Below, piece after piece: positions 55,461 through 56,833 of a stretch of DNA of 64,000 nt (positions are counted from its first letter, which is position 1; the number at the start of each line of letters is the position of its first letter). The translations under genes were made by a program, and so were the position numbers. The notes under the pieces were generated by a model. That model made no database searches, was not told where the DNA came from, and saw only the letters and a program-made list of their open reading frames with translations. Source of the stretch: Paenibacillus sp. FSL W8-0186 (GTDB lineage Bacteria > Bacillota > Bacilli > Paenibacillales > Paenibacillaceae); assembly GCF_037969765.1 (NCBI RefSeq), contig NZ_CP150207.1, positions 1,350,001 to 1,414,000 of the forward strand. Reading direction: 5' to 3'.

Positions 55461-55506
55461 TCCCTGATTTAATCCCTGATTTTACAATTGGATCAGCTTT
55501 AAGTTA

Positions 55507-55552
55507 AAATGACGGAAGGAGCTTTTGTTCTAAGCGCCTTTCGTCATTTTTA
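55507..55552 (+). terminator. htpG terminator
   Basis: AAATGACGGAAGGAGC pairs with GCGCCTTTCGTCATTT and is followed by TTATT. Confidence 0.85.
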
Positions 55553-55603
55553 TTGCCATGTTCAAGGATGCATGAGCTTATACAGGAAAGAGGTTGCTAT
55601 CAG

Positions 55604-55630
55604 ATGATTCATTACATTCGGTTGCGTTAA
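55604..55630 (+). CDS. RLR-type leader peptide upstream of the rRNA methyltransferase gene
   Basis: An 8-codon open frame reads MIHYIRLR and stops at TAA 55628. GGAAAGAGG lies 10 nt upstream, a good ribosome site. The Arg-Leu-Arg ending matches the macrolide-stalling +x+ motif of Erm leader peptides; the ErmD leader begins MTHSMRLR. The stop codon is only 4 nt before the stem of an intrinsic terminator. A ribosome stalled by a macrolide at the RLR codons would cover the start of this stem and allow read-through into the methyltransferase gene. This is inferred from sequence; expression is unproven. Confidence 0.6.
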   Translation: MIHYIRLR

Positions 55631-55634
55631 TGAG

Positions 55635-55703
55635 AGGTACAGAAGGATAACCCCGGGTTTTTAAGAATGAAGATGCCTGGGTTTATTTAACTGTGCCTTT
55701 TTT
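55635..55703 (+). terminator. Attenuator terminator in the rlmA leader
   Basis: AGGTACAG (55635-55642) pairs with CTGTGCCT (55691-55698) followed by six T residues. Inside, AACCCCGG (55649-55656) pairs with CCTGGGTT (55676-55683). A competing hairpin TCATTA/TAATGA (55609-55633) and an outer stem GTTAATGA (55626-55633) with TCATTAAC (55703-55710) share bases with the leader stop region. Confidence 0.7.
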
Positions 55704-55738
55704 CATTAACTCAATACGAATGAATGAGGTGCGATAGC

Positions 55739-56833
55739 ATGTTAATATTTCATACCATACCTGCCGGAACAGTCATTTGTCCGGTGTGCTCGGGTCCGCT
55801 AGATTTACAGGACAATAGTCTAATTTGCAAAAACCGTCATTGCTTTGATATCGCAAAGCAGGGGTACGTCAATTTCCTGCTGCAAGCTCCGAAGGAGAAA
55901 TACGACAAGCGATTGTTTCAATCGCGTGCCCGAGTTAGCCGGGCAGGGGTGTTTCGCGGGCTGACCGACCGCCTGGGCGAGATTGTCCGGAACGAGTTGG
56001 AGCGTCAGGACTTGAAGCGGCGAGAGAGTCGATCGCATGGGCTGAAGAAGCAAGGACTTCAGCAGCGAGAACGTCAGCAGCAGGAAATGCAGCAGCATCA
56101 ACTTCAGCGGCAAGCTGCCATGCAGCAGGAGCTGCAGAATAAAGTGCTTGAGCGACAGGCGCGGCAGCGGGGAGAGCTGGTACAACAAAAAGTGGTGCGG
56201 CCCAGCCTGGGTCAGAGTCCAGGGGAAAGGCAATGTACCGCTGCTGCGATACTGGATGCAGGCTGCGGAGAAGGCTCCCATCTATCGGCGTTGGTGCGCC
56301 ATCTGGCGGGCACGTCAGGGTGCAAGCTTGTCGCCGCAGGGATAGATATTTCCAAAGCCGGCATCCAATTGGCGGCTAAGGCCAATCCCGGAATGCTGTG
56401 GGGAGTTGCCGATCTTGCCAAATGTCCTTTTGCCAACGGTTCCTTCGATGTTATCCTGAACATCTTGTCCCCGGCGAATTACTCCGAGTTTCACCGTATG
56501 CTTGCGGATGATGGCTTGGTGATGAAGGTGATCCCGGGCACGGAGTATTTGCAGGAAATACGGCGGGCGCTGCATAGCGAGACAGCGCGGCGGACGTATT
56601 CCAATGACAGGACGGTTGAGCTGTTTCGCCGTCATTTTGAGCTTGTGGACATGCAGCAGGTAAAATACGAGCTTCTAATAGAGCAGAAAGATCTGGCGGA
56701 TTTGCTGCAGATGACTCCGCTGGCCTGGCAGGCCGGTGAGGAGCAGCTTCGCCTGATGCAGACGATGAACAAGCAGCCTGTCATAACCTTCGATTTTGTC
56801 ATTTTGATAGGCAGAAAGAGATATAAAAGATGA
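55739..56833 (+). CDS. rlmA: 23S rRNA guanine-N1 methyltransferase, RlmA/TlrB family, with a Gln-rich insertion
   Basis: A 364-aa SAM-dependent methyltransferase. The N-terminal zinc ribbon is C14-P-V-C17...C30-K-N-R-H34, followed by the family block DIAKQGYVNFLL. The SAM motif ILDAGCGEGSHLSAL is at about 171-185, and ILSPANYSEFHRML follows. RlmA enzymes methylate G745 or G748 in 23S rRNA helix 35; the G748 enzymes give tylosin-type macrolide resistance. Residues 86-165 are a highly polar Gln/Arg-rich coiled-coil insertion (QQRERQQQEMQQHQLQRQ) absent from usual 270-280-aa members. ATG 55739 follows GAGGTG. The upstream RLR leader peptide and terminator point to macrolide-inducible expression. 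Confidence 0.82.
   Translation: MLIFHTIPAGTVICPVCSGPLDLQDNSLICKNRHCFDIAKQGYVNFLLQAPKEKYDKRLFQSRARVSRAGVFRGLTDRLGEIVRNELERQDLKRRESRSHGLKKQGLQQRERQQQEMQQHQLQRQAAMQQELQNKVLERQARQRGELVQQKVVRPSLGQSPGERQCTAAAILDAGCGEGSHLSALVRHLAGTSGCKLVAAGIDISKAGIQLAAKANPGMLWGVADLAKCPFANGSFDVILNILSPANYSEFHRMLADDGLVMKVIPGTEYLQEIRRALHSETARRTYSNDRTVELFRRHFELVDMQQVKYELLIEQKDLADLLQMTPLAWQAGEEQLRLMQTMNKQPVITFDFVILIGRKRYKR

Follow-up and report, generated by a model that had tools for sequence, protein, structure and literature searches.

A probable tlrB-type macrolide-sensing leader before rlmA in Paenibacillus sp. FSL W8-0186 and an apparent family of such leaders before other macrolide resistance genes

Introduction

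Erm enzymes methylate A2058. In Bacillus subtilis, the product of yxjB, renamed tlrB, methylates G748, which leads to tylosin resistance (PMC6851288). According to the accessible part of that paper, tlrB is preceded by the leader peptide MIIQFIRYR, tandem stops and a NusA-dependent terminator. An SD-sequestering hairpin was mapped there by RNase T1, and a NusG-dependent pause was abolished by altering a T stretch. Tylosin gave a toeprint at the RYR of the leader, whereas erythromycin gave neither a toeprint nor induction in the experiments covered by that part. The paper also mentions 180 leader peptides upstream of tlrB homologs.

A second system is ErmDL, in which telithromycin and erythromycin cause a stall at Arg6-Leu7-Arg8 (PMC8298421, available in part). 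A section heading of that paper states that the stall with erythromycin is independent of the last Arg, and a primer name gives MTHSM for ErmDL. Macrolide esterases of the Gram-positive alpha/beta hydrolase type raised tylosin MICs, but not those of 14-/15-membered macrolides (PMC12704417). In its main text, neither 'leader peptide' nor 'regulat' occurs. The streptococcal macrolide efflux operon mef(E)/mel is likewise described as being under transcription attenuation in the accessible part of PMC4335068.

The locus studied here lies in a 64,000-nucleotide stretch (the window) of the 5.66 Mb chromosome of Paenibacillus sp. FSL W8-0186 (NZ_CP150207.1, positions 1,350,001 to 1,414,000), between htpG and a gene for an RlmA-family methyltransferase. 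A preliminary description had proposed a macrolide-sensing switch at this place, knew of no firmly described case and suggested a possible new ribo-regulator. As the B. subtilis case had been described in 2019 (PMC6851288), the suggestion of novelty fell. The idea of a switch gained from the same source, since the mechanism was shown for B. subtilis tlrB and its sequence parts are present here.

Features of the locus

The features found in the window are collected in Table 1.

Table 1. Features at the leader and rlmA locus (positions in the window)
Feature	Position	Strand	Basis
Likely sigma-A promoter of rlmA, TTTACA-18 nt-TAAAAT	55481..55510	+	inferred from consensus match (10/12)
Inverted repeat AAATGACG.../...CGTCATTT, 3' of htpG	55507..55549	+	sequence
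Leader-peptide ribosome site AAAGAGG	55587..55593	+	sequence; 10 nt upstream of ATG
Leader ORF MIHYIRLR, RLR = residues 6-8	55604..55630	+	ATG 55604, TAA 55628-55630
Complete conserved RNA element, SD-sequestering long hairpin enclosing terminator and inner hairpin	55607..55731	+	covariance model and fold
Predicted intrinsic terminator, AGGTACAG 55635-55642 / CTGTGCCT 55691-55698, T6 55698-55703	55635..55703	+	sequence, fold, comparison
Inner pause-type hairpin, T-rich TTTATTT at 55682-55688	55645..55688	+	fold
rlmA ribosome site GAGGTG, predicted to be paired in folded read-through RNA	55726..55731	+	window fold
RlmA-family 23S rRNA methyltransferase, 364 aa	55739..56833	+	Pfam, NCBIfam, structure match

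The leader frame with its ribosome site and the terminator with its T6 and inner stem were found in the sequence as the preliminary description had claimed, and the first arm of the terminator begins at the fifth base after the stop. The rlmA ATG lies 35 nt past the T run, also as claimed, and 108 nt past the leader stop. The SD-hiding hairpin of rlmA, the tandem stop and the candidate pause element had been overlooked. The TAA of the leader is followed in frame by a TGA (55631-55633). By analogy with B. subtilis, the TTTATTT after the inner hairpin is a natural candidate for a NusG-dependent pause element.

The predicted RNA folds were far from chance. Positions 55630-55706 folded at -31.7 kcal/mol (z -6.57) and positions 55570-55760 at -65.2 kcal/mol (z -6.65), and in both cases 0 of 200 dinucleotide shuffles were as low. 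In the window fold of the read-through RNA, the region around the rlmA ribosome site is base-paired to codons of the leader. Beside this site, AATGA (55719-55723) can also pair with TCATT (55703-55707), an alternative to the SD-sequestering pairing. A simple terminator scan with a loop limit of 3-8 nt did not list 55635-55703; the hairpin there has an inner stem. Neither the window nor six relatives reached the gathering score of any Rfam family, and the matches obtained at E up to 10 were all far below the gathering scores.

The TTTACA of the promoter was kept in all five relatives compared (L002, L003, L005, L006 and L007; L004 was not included). The second hexamer was TAAAAT in three of them and TAGAAT in two. 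From its sequence, the inverted repeat 3' of htpG is the probable htpG terminator, and it overlaps the -10 hexamer of the likely rlmA promoter.

The rlmA product scored 53.2 bits with Pfam Zn_ribbon_RlmA (PF21302; cut-off 27), and Methyltransf_25 was above its cut-off too. NCBIfam PRK11088 gave 162.5 bits, which is below its cut-off of 303, and the NCBIfam G745 and G748 models listed for this protein were all below theirs. The match to the E. coli RlmA structure 1p91 had an E of 1.4e-29. The zinc-ribbon residues C14, C17, C30 and H34 were invariant in 18 aligned rows. Between the zinc ribbon and the methyltransferase domain, the protein carries a Gln/Arg-rich linker insert of ~50 residues (window 56000-56165). 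The RlmA of L002, which is 95% identical, is without this insert, which looks like a fast-changing expansion.

With B. subtilis tlrB, as far as it is described in the accessible part of PMC6851288, the locus shares the gene family, the leader position, the C-terminal RxR, the tandem stops, the predicted terminator, and a predicted SD-sequestering hairpin with a candidate pause hairpin at its apex and a T-rich stretch. The differences are in the leader, which has 8 residues with RLR here and 9 residues with RYR in B. subtilis, and in the distance from the start site to rlmA, which is predicted to be ~220 nt here compared with 177 nt there. With ErmDL (PMC8298421, in part), the leader shares RLR at residues 6-8 and a place upstream of a 23S methyltransferase gene. 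However, it serves rlmA and not an Erm gene, and it lacks the long intergenic region of ErmDL: 276 nt separate ErmDL from ermD, against the 108 nt found here.

Conservation of the leader among rlmA loci

RlmA loci were gathered in three samplings. In the genus, 32 of 40 genomes had an RlmA match at E 0.001, the weak ones among them probably being other methyltransferases. From named genomes, the best 80 of 430 were taken. In the order, 93 of 296 genomes had a match at E 1e-20, and loci were taken from the best 30. This gave 140 loci, six of them without an rlmA ORF recognised by the script. After removal of duplicates, 109 loci had a recognisable rlmA ORF.

The mini-ORF screen and a covariance model together placed a leader directly 5' of rlmA in 69 of these 109 loci. 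L066 was counted via the covariance model because its leader lies further out than the mini-ORF screen reached. The apparent leader of L100 was discarded as a chance mini-ORF match, as the covariance model gives none. At L061, the leader stands 5' of an erm-rlmA pair, and the element is cut by the end of the locus. Since 39 of the 109 loci are without a leader, including 8 of the 25 loci with an rlmA ORF in the genus of the window (the other 17 have one), rlmA does not need it.

Presence of the leader was clustered on a quick RlmA tree, with 9 changes compared with a mean of 33.1 for shuffled labels; in this tree L100 was relabelled, and L066 and L061 are still labelled leaderless. The eight leaderless loci of the genus fall in one group of 11 leaderless rows. 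Among the 69 leader peptides of the mini-ORF screen, the most common were MIIKFIRLR (19), MIIQFIRYR (17) and MIHYIRLR (12). The leader of L054 (Bacillus swezeyi), MIIQFIRYR, is identical to the published B. subtilis peptide (PMC6851288, in part).

The leader is present in all six of the closest tree neighbours (L002-L007); its peptide is MVHYIRLR in L002, and both L006 and L007 have MIIKFIRLR. This retention, together with the fact that every part is intact in the window, makes it highly improbable that the leader is decayed or silent and has no function in this strain, even though decayed copies occur elsewhere (L378, L195, L206 and L376).

Codon constraint and RNA structure

In 67 aligned leaders, the Ile codon was ATT in 64 and the first Arg codon was CGN in all 67. 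The second Arg position was more variable, with seven codons, one of them for Lys. At the codon paired with the SD region, ATC was used in 53 of the 67. Constraint falls on the leader codons whose pairing partner is CGAATGAATG, next to the rlmA ribosome site, and RNA pairing thus explains the constraint that goes beyond the peptide.

For alignment A2, seven near-identical leaders, L100 and L071 were removed first, which left 60 leaders. The five helices were paired in 92.9% of cells, compared with 31.9-45.6% with slid partners. Cells changed on both sides numbered 38, compared with 12.0 after shuffling, and 0 of 500 shuffles were as high. The number of pairs with a change on both sides (7 of 35) was unexceptional, as 97 of 500 shuffles reach 7. 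The terminator and inner helices carry five of these seven pairs, and the SD-sequestering helices 1-3, with 19 pairs in all, carry only two. Much of the support for the SD helices is therefore invariance, which the codons of the leader peptide partly explain.

The terminator was the best conserved helix, with 99.4% of cells paired in the 60 loci, and its pair 82-154 was altered on both sides in eight sequences. The GGTTTATTT region of the inner hairpin was strongly conserved across relatives, and TTNTTT followed the inner hairpin in 59 of 62 rlmA sites. The preliminary description had named conservation of the RLR codons and stem pairs in relatives as a check, and most leader-bearing loci passed it. 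Given this conservation, the leader-terminator feature is not due to chance.

The RNAalifold consensus contained the terminator, the inner helix and also a small hairpin that competes, and was without the SD-sequestering pairing. The small hairpin (A2 columns 162-168 with 201-207) was paired in 97.4% of cells in the relatives. It is not claimed here because its covariation was weak, and 21 of 500 shuffles reach its value.

The strong conservation of the terminator would suit pure transcription attenuation as put forward in the preliminary description, in which a stalled ribosome only blocks the terminator and the rlmA ribosome site plays no part. We consider this very unlikely. For 58 of the 60 loci, the minimum-energy fold pairs half or more of the SD, the ATC codon that pairs with the SD region is kept as described above, and B. 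subtilis uses both layers (PMC6851288).

The leader before other resistance genes

Covariance model R1 rests on 40 rlmA leaders, each taken as far as the ribosome site, after removal of L060 and L106 and then of 18 of the 58 rows left (alignment A3). It scored the element of the window, which is one of its training rows, at 111.6 bits. A search with R1 gave a match in 61 of 197 family genomes and in 10 of 398 phylum genomes. In several of the matched genomes there was more than one site, or the site was not accompanied by rlmA.

Model R2 combined R1-type leaders with erm, esterase and mef-like leaders, and matched in 140 of 392 order genomes and in 57 of 398 class genomes. We examined 210 sites: 150 order rows, taken among the matches listed, and 60 of 81 class rows. 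The class rows left out were 13 for the window and genomes already seen and 8 opposite-strand echoes. The 210 sites include training rows such as the window, L187, L193, L198, L199, L201 and L202. The class of the next gene was set by coordinates (73 sites, all rlmA) or by BLASTP against reference proteins. The 73 coordinate-assigned rlmA sites include some partial or broken genes (in G038 the gene is in two pieces), and L260 and L353, assigned to RlmA by BLASTP, are short.

Among the matches listed, the next ORF at the 210 sites was RlmA in 132, Erm in 37, a macrolide esterase in 24, a macrolide 2'-phosphotransferase (Mph) in 9 and a Mef-like pump in 3. The remaining sites had a broken rlmA (2), a broken erm (1) or no resistance gene (2). 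More than one resistance class was present in 36 of the 182 genomes with a classified site, again among the matches listed. Outside the class, two erm sites and another four rlmA sites were seen; at one of the latter the gene is partial.

The Erm proteins next to the leader scored 221.7 (L187), 212.3 (L188) and 222.4 bits (L190) with a curated cut-off of 212, and the macrolide esterases 459.1 (L193) and 477.5 bits (L198) with an NCBIfam macro_16_ester cut-off of 420. The best families of the leader-adjacent MFS pumps were Mef(B) and Mef(A), far below the cut-offs of those families. The Mph class rests on one protein with 314.6 bits in NCBIfam Mph(C), below the cut-off of 550; the other eight, one of which is short, are 62-97% identical to it. 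Across the fetched sites, identity to the references was never below 38% for RlmA, 45% for Erm proteins, 55% for esterases or 81% for Mef-like proteins, and these minima were reached.

One could object that the way the model was built makes it pick out resistance genes; we rejected this. The model stops at the ribosome site, the rlmA-only R1 already found erm, esterase and mef-like sites, and no training set contained mph leaders.

In alignment A4, four classes align through the leader core. The nearest leader from another genome was of the same class in 133 of 143 sites. Mean leader identity was 0.607 between classes (0.583 within one genome), compared with 0.66-0.81 within classes. The leaders look like one family. 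This pattern suggests that the cassette entered each class long ago and has stayed there since.

The classes differed in structure. The mean fold z was -7.03 for rlmA, -7.55 for erm, -4.24 for mph, -4.01 for mef-like and -2.84 for esterase leaders, of which 10 of 26 had a z under -3. In A4, the erm leaders (3 rows) kept all helices at 90-100% of cells. The esterase leaders (6 rows) reached 44% for the SD pairing and 58% for D:B, and the mef-like leaders (4 rows) 58% for SD, 69% for the terminator and 56% for D:B. In the esterase and mef-like classes, the mechanism may thus be a reduced or another one. TTNTTT followed the inner hairpin at all 9 mph and all 6 mef-like sites, at 25 of 26 esterase sites and at 33 of 40 erm sites. 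The mph leaders (L379-L386) keep the peptide and the pause region and have a different terminator stem sequence, as if the stem had been replaced with the pairing kept.

Some sites showed other arrangements. In L356 (G875), the leader is followed by erm and then directly by rlmA (frames 321-1205 and 1190-1822), an apparent leader-erm-rlmA operon. In L341 (G1067), a short erm-like piece lies upstream of rlmA. At L188 and L189 (G362 and G387), co-oriented leader-erm and leader-rlmA cassettes are only ~8 and 9.5 kb apart. The leader peptide frame of L206 (G399) is without the RxR end, and the rlmA frame downstream is not intact either, which looks like joint decay. L195 (G291) and L378 (G923) are leader relics without an adjacent resistance gene; in L195 the peptide is without the usual start codon, and the ORF that follows encodes an O-methyltransferase from a different family.

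The leader was also found on plasmids: with rlmA in Priestia megaterium (L388) and with an esterase gene in Bacillus arachidis (L389), both plasmids being typed as mobilizable. A blastn search with an erm leader matched two plasmids, and the annotated 'RNA methyltransferase' of one of them is RlmA.

Class-specific leader peptides

Among the fetched sites, which are without the 73 coordinate-assigned ones, II-x-F[IM]R-type peptides stood before 40 of 62 rlmA and 25 of 26 esterase genes. None of the 40 erm, 9 mph and 6 mef-like sites had one. RlmA(II) and esterases of this family both act against tylosin (PMC6851288 and PMC12704417, each in part), which suggests as a hypothesis that the leader peptide encodes the drug spectrum.

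Leader ends of the R-x-W type occurred only among the erm and mef-like sites of the fetched set. They were seen in L281, L287 and L315 (erm) and in L202 and L205 (mef-like), and L280 (erm) has R-x-W-K. Such ends fit stalling for which the last Arg is dispensable, as stated for ErmDL with erythromycin in a heading of PMC8298421.

A short ORF that ends with two Arg codons could also belong to an attenuator for arginine or amino-acid starvation, or to a general response to slow translation. With macrolide resistance genes or their remains following 208 of the 210 sites examined (among the matches listed), and with leaders that end in R-x-W or R-x-W-K, we give this reading almost no credence.

The tylosin specificity of the B. 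subtilis leader may not carry over to the 8-residue RLR peptide. The same switch could be tuned to erythromycin- or ketolide-type drugs instead of tylosin. This is a variant of the main reading, and the confidence given to the two overlaps. One pointer is a mef-like leader of the same family (L318), which reads MTHSMRLR, the sequence given in the preliminary description as the start of the ErmD leader. Moreover, the RLR of the window stands at positions 6-8, as in ErmDL, which is stalled by telithromycin and erythromycin (PMC8298421, in part). On the other hand, the controlled gene is RlmA, and its B. subtilis homolog confers tylosin resistance (PMC6851288, in part). Furthermore, all 25 of the II-x-F[IM]R-type leaders at the 26 esterase sites have a terminal RLR. 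As such esterases raised MICs of tylosin and not of 14- or 15-membered macrolides (PMC12704417, in part), RLR alone does not mean erythromycin. On balance, the variant is possible but doubtful.

Discussion

Taken as one joint reading, a tlrB-type macrolide-sensing leader with the mechanism set out below, belonging to a portable cassette family, is in our view a highly probable account of the window. By analogy, the mechanism is very likely that of tlrB. Without drug, RNA polymerase would probably pause after the inner hairpin. The ribosome would translate MIHYIRLR and depart at the tandem stops, and the terminator would form. Any read-through RNA would fold into the long hairpin, in which the leader codons are base-paired to the region around the rlmA ribosome site. 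When a macrolide occupies its exit tunnel, the ribosome would stall at RLR, with Leu7 in the P site and Arg8 in the A site. The stalled ribosome would cover the 5' arm, so that termination would fail and the rlmA ribosome site would be freed. RlmA would then be expressed and would methylate the drug site G748. We infer stalling, pausing, drug dependence and the G748 target in the window from B. subtilis and ErmDL.

The switch of the window itself is already known in kind, as it is of the tlrB type in an 8-residue RLR form. The new part appears to be the cassette common to RlmA, Erm, macrolide esterase, Mph and Mef-like pump genes. Among the papers listed in searches of a partial literature without subscription journals, no title or displayed abstract described this leader before esterase, mph or mef-like genes, which is weak evidence of novelty. 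That a single ancestral cassette precedes five unrelated macrolide resistance mechanisms in Bacillota, with a peptide that diverged along with the gene and sets the inducing macrolides, is a reading we favour with some reserve.

The gain for the window is modest, being one more tlrB-type member in the 8-residue RLR form. If the wider reading is true, the ~200 natural sensor variants, each tied to a known resistance mechanism, would be material on the recognition of macrolides by nascent peptides. The sensor, in place of the gene's own sequence, could be used to find resistance genes, and genes under its control may look silent in drug-free tests. A single sensor would serve target methylation, drug cleavage, drug phosphorylation and efflux. 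Macrolide resistance in many Bacillota would then draw on one reusable RNA-peptide sensor and not on separately invented switches.
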